Assembly: GCF_003594885.1 (NCBI RefSeq)
Contig: NZ_QZEZ01000006.1
Coordinates: 186,001 to 250,000, forward strand
Reading direction: 5' to 3'
Length of the DNA: 64,000 nucleotides
Source: Vallicoccus soli
GTDB lineage: Bacteria; Actinomycetota; Actinomycetes; Motilibacterales; Motilibacteraceae
Shown one piece after another: positions 32,576 to 58,345 of the stretch. The first letter of the stretch is position 1. Every line of letters starts with the position of its first letter. Under the pieces are notes generated by a model. The model saw only the letters and a program-made list of their open reading frames with translations. It was not told the origin of the DNA and searched no databases. The position numbers and the translations under genes were made by a program.

Positions 32576-32705
32576 CGCTCGCTCCTGCCGCTCGTCCGTC
32601 GCCGTCGTCCCTGGTGGGACCGCCGGCCGCGCCGGTGCTCATCGCCGCCCCGGTGACCCGCTGCGGGGCTGAGCCGGGCCGGGCCGGTCGGCCCCGGGGA
32701 CCCCC

Positions 32706-32729
32706 CCGGCCGCGATCATGCGCTCGTGG
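32706..32729 (+). repeat. GATCATGC interspersed repeat, copy 1
   Basis: Carries the core CGCGATCATGCGCTCGTGG. Direct orientation relative to copy 2, with 53 bases between. Confidence 0.75.
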
Positions 32730-32782
32730 CGGCTGCGGGCTCAGGGCGCCCCCGTGGCTCGGTGCAGTGCCGTGCTCCGACC

Positions 32783-32806
32783 CCGGCCGCGATCATGCAC
32801 TCGTGG
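32783..32806 (+). repeat. GATCATGC interspersed repeat, copy 2
   Basis: Identical to copy 1 over 24 bases except one G to A change (GATCATGCACTCGTGG). Confidence 0.75.
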
Positions 32807-32917
32807 TGGGCGCGGGTCCAGGGGCCGTCGCGCCCACTCGGCTTCGCCTCACGTGTCGCCCGTGCCGTGCCGGCGGTGACGCCTGGCTGGTCAGACGCCC
32901 CGCAGCACCACCAACCA

Positions 32918-32941
32918 GCCGCCGCGATCATGCTCGGATGG
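32918..32941 (+). repeat. GATCATGC interspersed repeat, copy 3
   Basis: Same left half (GCCGCCGCGATCATGC) but a right half of TCGGATGG. Faces copy 4, which ends the same way, forming an inverted pair with 55 bases between. Confidence 0.65.
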
Positions 32942-32996
32942 CGCGCACCTGACCCCCGACGGGCAGCAGACCGACGACGACACCGGCACCCCCGCG

Positions 32997-33020
32997 CCAT
33001 CCGCGCATGATCACGGCAGG
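32997..33020 (-). repeat. GATCATGC interspersed repeat, copy 4 (inverted)
   Basis: On the minus strand it reads CCTGCCGTGATCATGC then GCGGATGG. Together with copy 3 it could fold a long cruciform. It abuts the HNH pseudogene. Confidence 0.65.
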
Positions 33021-33520
33021 ACTGACGGCGAGCAGGATGAGCTGGGTGAGCGGGAGCTGCTGCTCGGGCAGCACCGCGTGAACACCCTGCTCGCCCGGGC
33101 GCTGCACGCCCTCGACGACCCCACCCTGCCCACCGTCACGGCCGGCACCTCACCCTGCACGGGCACGTCGACCTGCCCACCTGCTCGACGCCGGACGCAC
33201 CCGCTACCAACCGGCCCAGCAGCTGCGCGACCACGTCCTCGCCAGCGACCACACCTGCGTGTTCCCCGGCTGCGCCCGCCCCGCCGCCCGCCGCCAGACC
33301 GACTCGTCCACGCACGGCACGACGACGGCGTCACGTCCGCGGACAACCTCCGACCCCTGTGCACGAGGCACCACGGGCTGACGACGAAGCAGCGCTGGAC
33401 CAGCACCACCAGCGAGGACGCCGACACGGGGCCGACCATCACCTGGACCAGCCGCACCGGCCGCACCCTCACCACCGGCCCCACCCCCAGCCCCTGCACA
33501 CCGCTGCCGCGCCACCAGCG
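33012..33520 (+). pseudogene. Remnant of a DUF222/HNH endonuclease gene
   Basis: Pieces of a DUF222 (13E12-type) HNH endonuclease occur in two reading frames. One frame gives NTLLARALHALDDPTLPTV. A second gives RTRYQPAQQLRDHVLASDHT then CVFPGCARPAARRQTD. The first frame resumes with HARHDDGVTSADNLRPLCTRHH and ends ITWTSRTGRTLTTGPTP, a typical family C-terminus. At least two frameshifts (near 33180 and 33304) are needed, and most of the N-terminal DUF222 domain is gone. The HNH residues therefore cannot be made in one protein. It lies directly beside the repeat cluster. Confidence 0.82.
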
Positions 33521-33557
33521 CCCAGGACCAGCACGCCGACGCCCGCACCACCCGCAC

Positions 33558-34250
33558 TCAGCGCTCGTGGCCGGGGCTCGACGACGAGCCACCGTCCTGG
33601 AGCGGGGCGCGCCAGACCAGCAGGTAGCGCCAGAGCAGCAGCCTCCGCACCCGGGCGCCGGGGAGGTGCCGAGCGGCGACGTCCCGCACCTCGCGGACCG
33701 TGAGGGCCGGCGCCGCGACCGGCATCGCGGCGTGGGTGGGCTCGTGCGCGTACCCGTGGCCGAGGCGCAGCACGCGGACGGCGCGCAGCCCGACGGCGAG
33801 GACGCGCTGGGTGACGTACGCGGCCGCCTCCACGGGCAGGTCCCGCGGCAGGTCGGTCCGGGGCAGGGCGACCGCGACGAGGACCCCGCCCGGGCGCAGG
33901 GACCGCGCGAGCCGCGGCAGTGCCAGGTCGAGCGGCAGGTGGTGCAGAGCGCTGACCGAGACCACGGCGTCGTACCCCGTCCCGGGCAGCGGGTCCCGCA
34001 GGACGTCCGCCCGCACCACGCGCACCGACGGCGGCACCCGGGCGCGGGCGGCCGCCACCATCCCCGGGTCGACGTCGAGCGCGTCGACGCGGGCGCCGCG
34101 CCGGGCCAGCCGCACGGCGAGCGCGCCCGCGCCGCAGCCGACGTCGAGGACCCGCAGCGGTCCGGGCGGGACCCGGTGCAGGAGGGTCCGGTGGTACCAG
34201 GCGTTGTGGTCCCACGCCCACGGGTGGGGGCGCGGCCGGTCGTCGGTCAC
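33558..34250 (-). CDS. Class I SAM-dependent methyltransferase
   Basis: Methyltransferase of 230 residues. PWAWDHNAWYHRTLLHRVP at the N-terminus is followed by motif I RVLDVGCGAGALAVRLA (about 33-49), the acidic loop DALDVDPGMV, and DAVVSVSALHHLPLD then SLRPGGVLVAVAL. The C-terminus has a basic, hydrophobic tail (VRRLLLWRYLLVWRAP). Substrate unknown. Its GTG overlaps the stop of the pentapeptide gene (GTGA), so the two are co-translated. Confidence 0.9.
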   Translation of the reverse strand: MTDDRPRPHPWAWDHNAWYHRTLLHRVPPGPLRVLDVGCGAGALAVRLARRGARVDALDVDPGMVAAARARVPPSVRVVRADVLRDPLPGTGYDAVVSVSALHHLPLDLALPRLARSLRPGGVLVAVALPRTDLPRDLPVEAAAYVTQRVLAVGLRAVRVLRLGHGYAHEPTHAAMPVAAPALTVREVRDVAARHLPGARVRRLLLWRYLLVWRAPLQDGGSSSSPGHER

Positions 34251-56230: not shown

Positions 56231-56647
56231 ATGACCTGGGACGTGTACGCGCTCCGCCCGCCGCACGGCGTGCGCCGGCTCGAGGACCTGCCCGAGGGCT
56301 GGCTCCCCCCGGTCGTCGGCGACCCCGGGGCGGTCGCCGCCCGGGTGCGCGAGGCCGCGCCGCACGCCGAGCCGGGCAGCGGCGGCTGGCTCGCGCTGCG
56401 CGGCCCCGACCACGACGTCGACGTCGCCCTCGGCAAGGGCGTCGAGGTCCGCGACCTCACGCTCTACGTCAACGGCGGCGACGGCGCGGTCCCCGTCGTC
56501 CTCGCCGTCTGCCGCGCCGTCGGCGTCGTCCCCTTCGACACCGAGACCGGCGACGTGCTCACCGAGGACTCCCGCCCCCCGGGCCCGCCCGCCGACGACG
56601 CCGACGACGAGCCCCGCGGCTTCTGGCGCCGCCTCGTCCGCCGCTGA
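56231..56647 (+). CDS. Conserved protein of unknown function
   Basis: A 138-residue cytoplasmic protein beginning MTWDVYALRPPHGVRRLEDLPEGWLP. The fold seems to be a small alpha/beta domain (VRDLTLYVNGGDGAVPVVLAVCRAVGVVPFD). I recall similar uncharacterised proteins in many bacteria. ATG at 56231 follows GACACT by 6 bases; a longer form from 56195 has AAGGAGG but too short a spacer. Divergent from arsR and facing its operator. Confidence 0.75.
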   Translation: MTWDVYALRPPHGVRRLEDLPEGWLPPVVGDPGAVAARVREAAPHAEPGSGGWLALRGPDHDVDVALGKGVEVRDLTLYVNGGDGAVPVVLAVCRAVGVVPFDTETGDVLTEDSRPPGPPADDADDEPRGFWRRLVRR

Positions 56648-56657
56648 CCCCCGGCCG

Positions 56658-56682
56658 CCACGGGCGCGTGATCGCCGCCGGG
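56658..56682 (-). repeat. GATCATGC interspersed repeat, copy 5 (divergent copy)
   Basis: Minus-strand copy with GATCACGCGCCCGTGG in place of the common core. It starts 10 bases after the stop of the gene at 56231 and forms a head-to-head pair with copy 6. Confidence 0.6.
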
Positions 56683-56686
56683 AAGC

Positions 56687-56710
56687 CCCGCCGTGATCAT
56701 GCGCTGGTGG
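56687..56710 (+). repeat. GATCATGC interspersed repeat, copy 6
   Basis: Core CGTGATCATGCGCTGGTGG; only 4 bases separate it from the inverted copy 5. Confidence 0.75.
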
Positions 56711-56741
56711 TGGCGGCGGAGCGAGGGGTGGGGCACGACCT

Positions 56742-56765
56742 CCCGCCGCGATCATGCGCTGGTGG
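56742..56765 (+). repeat. GATCATGC interspersed repeat, copy 7
   Basis: Core CGCGATCATGCGCTGGTGG; faces inverted copy 8 across 86 bases. Confidence 0.75.
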
Positions 56766-56851
56766 TCGTGGCGCGGCCGGGGGCGGCACGTCCCGCGCGG
56801 CTGGGCTGCTCCGCCAGGCGTACGAGGAGGCGGCCGGCCCCTCGACCCCCA

Positions 56852-56876
56852 CCACGAGCGCATGATCGCGGCGGGG
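56852..56876 (-). repeat. GATCATGC interspersed repeat, copy 8 (inverted)
   Basis: Minus-strand core CGCGATCATGCGCTCGTGG. It begins on the base right after the stop codon of the Lrp-family gene and shares its orientation. Confidence 0.75.
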
Positions 56877-57356
56877 TCAGGCGTGGCGGTCGCGGCGGTC
56901 GAGGACGTGGCGCAGGACGGTGCGGGTCTCGAGGCCGGTGACGCCGGGGGCGAGGCGGACGGCCTGGACGGCGGCGTACAGCTCCTGCTGGGTCGCGCAC
57001 TCCAGGCGCACCTCGTAGTCGACGGAGCCGGCGAGGTCGAGGACCTCGACGACGGCGGGGACGGCGGCGAGCGCGGCCTCGCAGGCGTCCGCGTCGGCGT
57101 CGGCGGCGACGCGCAGGTGGACGAGGGCGGACAGCGCCGCCTGGCGGGAGGGCTCGAGCACGGCCGTGTAGCCGCGCAGCACCCCCTCGGCCTCGAGGCG
57201 GCGCATGCGCTGGGCGACGGCGTTGGCGGAGAGCCCGACGGCGGCGCCGAGGTCGCGGTACGAGGCGCGGGCGTTCCTCACGAGCAGGCGGAGGATCCTC
57301 TCGTCCGTCGCGTCGGGGCGGCGGTTGCTCACGGGCGTCGCGCTCACGCCTTGCAT
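56877..57356 (-). CDS. Lrp/AsnC-family regulator
   Basis: A 159-residue feast/famine regulator. HTH: ILRLLVRNARASYRDLGAAVGLSANAVAQRMRRLEAEGVLRGY (residues about 20-62), followed by the RAM ligand domain ending VTGLETRTVLRHVLD. Divergent from an EamA exporter with a 10-bp CCCGGCCGGG palindrome in the 32-bp gap, a common pairing where Lrp controls amino-acid or metabolite export. A GTG at 57347 is an alternative start. Confidence 0.93.
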   Translation of the reverse strand: MQGVSATPVSNRRPDATDERILRLLVRNARASYRDLGAAVGLSANAVAQRMRRLEAEGVLRGYTAVLEPSRQAALSALVHLRVAADADADACEAALAAVPAVVEVLDLAGSVDYEVRLECATQQELYAAVQAVRLAPGVTGLETRTVLRHVLDRRDRHA

Positions 57357-57388: not shown

Positions 57389-58324
57389 GTGACCACCGTG
57401 CCCGCCCGCCGCGCCTCGCCGGCCCTCGCCGCCGCCCTCGGCCTCGTGCTCGTCACCGCGAGCTGGGGCTCCACCTTCCCGCTGCTCAAGGACGTCAACG
57501 AGCGGGTGCCGGTGCCGGACTTCCTGGCGGTGCGGTTCGCGGTCGCCGCGGTGGTGCTGCACCTGCTGGCTCCGCGCGCGGTGGCGCGGATGGCGCCGGA
57601 GGTGCGCCGGCGCGCGGTCTGGCTGGGGCTCGCGTACGGCGCCGCCCAGCTGGTGCAGACCGTCGGCCTGCAGCACACGTCGGCGTCGGTGTCCGGCTTC
57701 GTGACCGGGATGTACGTCGTCCTGACCCCCGTCCTGTCCGCCCTGCTGCTGCGCCAGCGGGTCGCGCCGCGGGTCCGGCTGGCCGTCGCGCTGGCGACGC
57801 TCGGGCTGGCGGTGCTCTCGCTGCAGGGGTTCGCGGTGGGCCCGGGCGAGCTCCTGACCCTGCTCGGCGCGCTGCTCTACGCCGTGCACATCGTCGGGCT
57901 CGGCGCCTGGGCGACCGCGCGCGACGCGTGGGGCCTCGCGGTCGTGCAGATGGCGGTCGTCAGCGCCGTGTGCACCGTGGCCGCGGTGCCCGGCGGCATC
58001 GCGGTGCCGGACCGCACGGGCGACTGGGTGGCGCTGCTCTACGTCGCCCTCGTGGCCGGCGCCTTCGCCCTGGTGGTGCAGACCTGGGCGCAAGCGCACC
58101 TGCCGCCGACCCGCGCCGCGGTCGTCATGACGCTGGAGCCGGTGTGGGCCGCGGGCTTCGCCGTGGCGTTCGCGGGCGAGGTGCTCGGGTGGCGGACGCT
58201 GGTCGGCGGGCTGCTCGTCCTGGCCGCGATGTACCTGTGCGAGGTGCCGCGGCGCGGGCGCCCGGCGGGACCCGGGGGCGCGGACGACGCCGGGCCCGCC
58301 GCCCGCAGCACCATCAGCGCATGA
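57389..58324 (+). CDS. EamA-family (DMT) transporter
   Basis: Drug/metabolite transporter of 311 residues with two EamA halves and about ten helices. ASWGSTFPLLKDVNERVPVPDFLAVRF and the second half ending LEPVWAAGFAVAFAGEVLGWRTLVGGLLVL are typical. The last codons and stop are part of repeat copy 9. The GTG at 57389 immediately follows TACCTC; the next GTG, at 57398, would fit a leaderless start better. Substrate unknown; the divergent Lrp gene suggests an amino-acid-like molecule. Confidence 0.92.
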   Translation: MTTVPARRASPALAAALGLVLVTASWGSTFPLLKDVNERVPVPDFLAVRFAVAAVVLHLLAPRAVARMAPEVRRRAVWLGLAYGAAQLVQTVGLQHTSASVSGFVTGMYVVLTPVLSALLLRQRVAPRVRLAVALATLGLAVLSLQGFAVGPGELLTLLGALLYAVHIVGLGAWATARDAWGLAVVQMAVVSAVCTVAAVPGGIAVPDRTGDWVALLYVALVAGAFALVVQTWAQAHLPPTRAAVVMTLEPVWAAGFAVAFAGEVLGWRTLVGGLLVLAAMYLCEVPRRGRPAGPGGADDAGPAARSTISA

Positions 58325-58334
58325 TCACGGCGGG
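58311..58334 (-). repeat. GATCATGC interspersed repeat, copy 9
   Basis: Minus-strand core CGTGATCATGCGCTGATGG. The stop codon of the EamA gene (58322-58324) lies inside it, so the repeat supplies the last residues of that protein. It lies 11 bases beyond the lacI stop. Confidence 0.7.
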
Positions 58335-58345
58335 AGGGGGCGGGG

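Follow-up and report, generated by a model that had tools for sequence, protein, structure and literature searches.

Dispersed REP-like repeats in Vallicoccus soli and a candidate partner nuclease combining AbiEi and Vsr/EDxHD-type domains

The closest described counterparts of the repeats considered here are the REP and REPIN sequences that, together with RAYT enzymes, form REPtrons (PMC3733652, PMC8266576, PMC3116915). In both groups the repeats are short and dispersed, can form hairpins and have a constant head; both are intergenic and lie mostly 3′ of genes; in both, one chromosomal enzyme gene is flanked by inverted copies, and enzyme and repeat differ together between lineages. They part on three counts. 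The enzyme of REPtrons is a Y1 HUH transposase, whereas the candidate found here joins an AbiEi domain to a predicted Vsr/EDxHD-type nuclease; the head reads TGATCATGC rather than GTAG or CGTC; and head-to-tail arrays with units of 21-22 nt or 32-44 nt are common here. REPs of the CGTC type were reported to lack a dedicated transposase in the 2013 REP survey (PMC3733652), in the text of which the word Actinobacteria is absent. The wider question is how REP-type repeats spread and whether enzymes besides RAYT can drive that spread. Our search of the literature (subscription papers lying outside its scope) found no paper combining REPIN, RAYT and Actinobacteria, and none joining DUF559 with inverted repeats or repetitive extragenic elements; in a broader search, no title or beginning of an abstract suggested a nuclease-repeat link.

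The EDxHD proteins are a recognised family of homing endonucleases with a restriction-enzyme-like mechanism (PMC3943268), to which a DUF559-containing intein gene has been assigned (PMC9403480). MITEs and insertion sequences resemble the present system in that inverted repeats, also found on their own, lie at either end of an enzyme gene. Here, however, the ends are arrays of variable repeat number rather than defined termini, several genera have the gene at one and the same conserved site, and the DDE_Tnp_1 profile (PF01609; families scanned, PF01609 and PF01797) has no match in the genome under study.

Repeat copies in the window and across the genome

The sequence analysed, hereafter the window, is a 64,000-nt stretch (C6:186001-250000) of the Vallicoccus soli genome (G000; 4.04 Mb in 20 contigs, 98.6% complete). 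The original prediction had placed four repeat copies between two genes at 56658-56876, and all four were found there. The repeats and neighbouring genes discussed below are as follows, in window coordinates.

32700-32740, plus strand: class A copy of the first cluster
32777-32817, plus strand: class A copy of the first cluster
32905-33030, no strand assigned: inward-facing class A pair with long arms (fold z -5.7)
56231-56647, plus strand: left convergent neighbour, an ORF with no Pfam family (home-made gene call and Pfam)
56658-56685, minus strand: copy 5, class A repeat with diverged core GCGATCACGC, abutting copy 6 back to back
56686-56716, plus strand: copy 6, class A repeat CCCCGCCGTGATCATGCGCTGGTGGTGG
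56741-56771, plus strand: copy 7, class A repeat CCCGCCGCGATCATGCGCTGGTGGTCG
56846-56876, minus strand: copy 8, class A repeat facing copy 7
56877-57347, minus strand: right convergent neighbour, Lrp/AsnC-type regulator (PF13404, E 6e-16, and PF01037)
58308-58340, minus strand: lone class A copy where the next two genes converge; it overlaps the EamA gene (57389-58324) at its 3′ end

The convergent gap holding copies 5-8 measures 229 nt, and the core of copy 8 starts 9 nt past the stop codon of the Lrp/AsnC gene. That copies 5 and 6 would fold as a hairpin was borne out by RNA fold prediction, which gave -44.2 kcal/mol for 56656-56715 (z -4.6; 0/200 shuffles equally low). Copies 7 and 8 face each other as anticipated, and the segment containing them (56740-56876) has a predicted fold of z -5.5. 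The most REPIN-like element of the window is the pair at 32905-33030. No Rfam match was obtained within the window. Beside the first cluster, 33040-33560 holds what seems, judged by eye, to be a degraded C-terminal part of an HNH/13E12-like gene, within a duplicated segment with 94% identity over 296 nt to C1:776717-777012; this 296-nt segmental duplication contains a class A pair.

The family has the core YGATCATGC. The form SYGATCATGC occurs 258 times in the 4.04-Mb genome and CCGYGATCATGCGC 53 times, the reversed control giving 0 in either case. Aligned copies share one common core, CCGYGATCATGC, with a constant head, (C/G)YGATCATGC, that is not a GTAG or CGTC tag, and they split into two classes. 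Class A (...GCGCNNRTGGYG), to which the window copies belong, is found singly, as loose tandems and as inverted pairs, with near-perfect arms in some of the latter, palindromic pairs being a minority. Class B is a 22-nt unit, about GCCGYGATCATGCAGNNCCCCG, organized in head-to-tail arrays of 2-20 units. The longest array, with 19 near-identical units consecutively at C9:47864-48260 (L107), is a likely hypervariable locus of use in strain typing. Class B arrays together with a nearly identical terminal sequence of ~80 nt also occupy the contig ends C2:636700-637032 and C3:381040-381358, where the assembly was probably broken by a repeated element.

Placement relative to genes was scored in an unbiased 809-kb sample of the genome using a home-made codon-usage gene finder. 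Of 67 core matches, 57 were intergenic, and 38 of these 57 lay in convergent gaps, though such gaps make up 19% of intergenic length; the first copy often starts 9-22 nt past a stop codon. A role as DNA-uptake sequence was rejected, since the repeats keep almost entirely to intergenic DNA. An exception to the 3′-end preference is the four-copy class B array at C4:211557-211710, which fills a divergent gene-start region.

Were 258 points scattered at random over 4.04 Mb, about 3 neighbours within 200 bp would be expected; the sampled stretches alone yielded 42 non-array pairs within 200 bp plus 70 pairs at exactly 22 nt. Clustering was thus far above random, while the orientation of the 42 non-array pairs (16 inward, 12 outward, 14 same-strand) showed inverted pairs to be only mildly over-represented, at no constant distance. 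The interpretation of the cluster as REPINs held up in part: the copies are REP-like, dispersed, hairpin-capable and mostly convergently placed, but they do not form a fixed REPIN unit, since pair spacing is variable and same-strand 22-nt arrays are the commonest arrangement.

One head and genome-specific tails in other actinobacteria

Copies of CGTGATCATGCA numbered 287 in G004, a member of the same family as G000, 288 in G033, 100 in G257, 29 in G157, 22 in G075 and 20 in G140; G001, G002 and G003, also of the family of G000, had few. The tail following the head was CGTCCTGGG in G004, ATCCCGCCACCC in G033, CGTTCGCCC in G157, CGYCAGCGCA in G257 and GTTGTTGTC in G075. One head with a genome-specific tail is amplified across unrelated actinobacterial genomes. 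In a G004 sample, 34 copies fell in convergent gaps making up 15% of intergenic length, and in a small G033 sample copies avoided such gaps. Conservation of a hairpin through arm complementarity was considered and rejected: complementarity within G004 pairs is no higher than between arms of different pairs, and the excess seen in G000 is confounded by mixed subclasses. Across 85k genomes, in a set that may omit the source genome, tandem arrays of the 22-nt GATCATGC unit gave 6 matches, none of them actinobacterial.

The original prediction had remarked that no RAYT was visible, and a profile search of the whole G000 genome for the Y1/RAYT family (PF01797) agreed, giving no match while positive controls matched. 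PF01797 was likewise absent from G001-G004, G033, G257, G157 and G075 and was present in G140, so that five of the six other repeat-rich genomes tested lack Y1/RAYT; its absence from these and from G000 speaks against this enzyme as the partner of the repeats.

A nuclease gene bracketed by inverted copies

In several genomes, inverted arrays surround a gene of ~1 kb, and in G000, G257 and G157 this gene encodes the same protein, with an AbiEi-like N-terminal part and a REase_MTES_1575/DUF559-like C-terminal part. This AbiEi-domain protein with a C-terminal Vsr/EDxHD-like nuclease domain, encoded outside the window, is our candidate partner of the repeats. Its gene is found at two places in G000.

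C2:137611-138651: intact nuclease gene between class B arrays, its last codons running into the array
C1, about 1035790-1036790: frameshifted orthologue preceded by three class A copies and followed by degenerate, inverted ones of the same class

The C1 frameshift sits at a short C run and may be a sequencing error. The two repeat classes of G000 are thus matched by two nuclease loci, class B by that on C2 and class A by that on C1.

Ten genomes were searched with the G000, G257 and G157 proteins and the flanks of the matches were then read, flank sequence never being used in the protein searches. The best matches in G033, G004, G003 and G075 had inward-pointing copies on both sides, and those in G001 and G140 an exact copy on one side; among 18 lower-scoring paralogues, none had copies within gene-bracketing flanks. 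An eight-protein profile run against 394 genomes brought in two more, G053 and G118, where exact heads flank the gene on both sides. Variant heads were seen at three orthologues: both flanks of the G140 gene bear CGTGATCTTGTAG, the G001 gene has an exact copy besides a TGATCAAGCA copy, and at the G009 gene an array of TGATCAAGCA on one flank is paired with weaker variants on the opposite flank. Inward heads bracket 12/12 top orthologues when variants of one to a few bases are counted and 9/12 with exact heads on both sides, and in repeat-rich genomes the copies flanking the nuclease bear the host genome's own tail. Because the G000, G257 and G157 genes were chosen for being bracketed, the independent evidence comes from the other nine orthologues, and the score-based association (P 1e-13) is partly circular, the survey profile including sequences of the repeat-rich genomes, and carries no weight in our argument. 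Two other genes, C5:99467-100162 in G000 (1 of 388 genes) and mobA in G033, are also bracketed; chance bracketing of ordinary genes thus happens, if infrequently. We therefore rejected the notion that any gene between two inverted arrays is the partner; bracketing alone is no proof, and the evidence lies in the shared orthologue.

An AlphaFold2 model was obtained for the G157 protein (pLDDT 87.6). Its AbiEi half matched 6y8q (Foldseek E 2.6e-5, Z 7.7), and Pfam PF09407 (AbiEi) scored above its cut-off in the G000, G033 and G004 proteins. The best structural matches of the nuclease half were I-Bth0305I (3r3p, Z 8.3), 3hrl (Z 7.7) and Vsr (1cw0, Z 7.5); a Z of about 8 is modest, but for this domain these related enzymes top the list. 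The Pfam MTES_1575 match of this half was below its cut-off. E195, D228, E239, H246 and D255, numbered along the first row of the alignment and invariant across eight orthologues, are putative catalytic residues. The predicted fold of the C-terminal domain resembles that of EDxHD homing endonucleases such as I-Bth0305I (PMC3943268), from which the protein differs in being fused to an AbiEi-like half, located outside an intron or intein, and tied to repeat arrays. The N-terminal half has the fold and profile matches of the AbiEi component of AbiE type IV toxin-antitoxin systems, but here the nuclease is fused to it and no AbiEii toxin gene is among the neighbours checked: the gene sits between DUF349 and RelA-type genes in G000, G003, G004 and G326 and beside ClpX in G033 and G009. 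A search for phage homologues gave no match, and a plasmid collection gave two weak ones, of which one came from an 11.85-Mb record. At L306, L302, L303 and L362, for example, the start of the nuclease gene is preceded, at a distance of 48-176 nt, by a CTGTGGAyrAC-like motif similar to a DnaA box; TGTGGA was present upstream of the gene at 35/66 loci, compared to 3% of control windows.

In the wider nuclease family, 400-bp flanks were examined for inverted repeats that match exactly over 15 nt or more. Such repeats were present at 39/88 nuclease loci (22/48 and 17/40), as opposed to 0/78 control intervals taken 1.7 kb away within those stretches and 1/302 ordinary G000 genes. Other clades had other repeats, often likewise in 21-22-nt tandems: CTCGCGAGAGAC in G326 and G311, GCGCTCGCGGGTCAC in G319 and TTGATTCCTCCCTCGTGGCGGG in G365; TTGATCATGGAGAAG-type flanks were recurrent in f20 genomes. 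In G326, G319 and G365 the arrays flank the gene, but 120-140 kb of sequence showed no dispersed copies. At the DUF349|RelA site, the G326 repeat differs from that of G000, G003 and G004; at this one conserved site the enzyme and its repeat have diverged in step. The nuclease tree did not recover a single origin for the TGATCATG association (5 changes; row L311 wrongly extracted). More distant AbiEi-nuclease paralogues (L282, L283, L284, L291, L298, L300 and L369) carry inverted repeats of other sequence, 21-75 nt long, such as GCACCCGTACGGGTGCCGACCGAGGC around C7:212469 of G000.

Explanations for the spread of the repeats

These observations suggest an enzyme-plus-repeat partnership, undescribed so far, that resembles RAYT/REP yet is unrelated to it. 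Our reading, for and against which we find the case evenly balanced, is that the copies form a REP-like family whose constant head is recognised by a dedicated AbiEi + Vsr/EDxHD-type nuclease, an analogue of RAYT/REP built on an unrelated enzyme. From the association of nuclease and repeat we infer cleavage and mobility: the head, (T/C)GATCATGC(A), would be the recognition site; the AbiEi half would bind it and the protein nick or cut there; repair or strand transfer could then copy repeats to new sites, and copies would survive mainly at harmless places just after stop codons. We propose only tentatively the broader view of a second, independently evolved actinobacterial REP system: in place of a tyrosine transposase, a chromosomal AbiEi-Vsr/EDxHD nuclease would recognise a short repeat that evolves with it and would spread that repeat, each clade of the enzyme having its own. 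Counting against spread by the nuclease are the non-dispersing clades (G326, G319, G365), the other bracketed genes, the lack of a single origin on the tree, the avoidance of convergent gaps in the small G033 sample and the modest Z scores.

The main competing account is passive spread of an operator array: the repeats would be operator or landing sites of the AbiEi half, for autoregulation or silencing, and would have dispersed by slippage and segmental duplication rather than through the nuclease. AbiEi antitoxins are DNA-binding regulators, a 22-nt period would set the sites on one helix face, the CTGTGGAyrAC motif is conserved ahead of the nuclease gene, some clades show no dispersal, and the 296-nt duplication carries a class A pair. 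Against it, the arrays lie inverted on both sides of the gene instead of upstream only, and slippage alone does not readily account for the hundreds of copies, single or in inverted pairs, dispersed through several unrelated genomes; we consider this account unlikely, if worth keeping in view. The convergent-gap counts of G000 (38/57 intergenic copies in 19% of intergenic length) and G004 (34 copies in 15%), and the stable predicted folds, would also suit 3′-end elements, namely bidirectional terminators or mRNA stabilisers selected at convergent gene ends, with the nuclease link incidental. Such selection fits poorly with the tandem 22-nt arrays, the copies in divergent gaps (C4:211595-211683) and the lack of preferential complementarity between paired G004 arms, and it leaves the bracketing of the nuclease without explanation; it strikes us as improbable, and any 3′-end function where genes converge may be secondary. 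Finally, inverted pairs, intergenic location and a conserved head with a variable tail are what ordinary REPINs would show if moved by a RAYT missing from the assembly or too diverged. With no PF01797 match in a 98.6%-complete genome in which positive controls match, none in G004, G033, G257, G157 and G075, and pair spacing that is not fixed, this possibility is largely refuted already and we give it hardly any credence.

Returning to the nuclease-driven reading, the copies at the window locus have probably become passive, or serve as 3′-end hairpins for two converging transcripts. If the reading is true, a widespread nuclease family (AbiEi + MTES_1575/DUF559-like) would gain a candidate substrate and the REP-like repeats of actinobacteria a candidate maker, both proposals being testable with purified protein and oligonucleotides.
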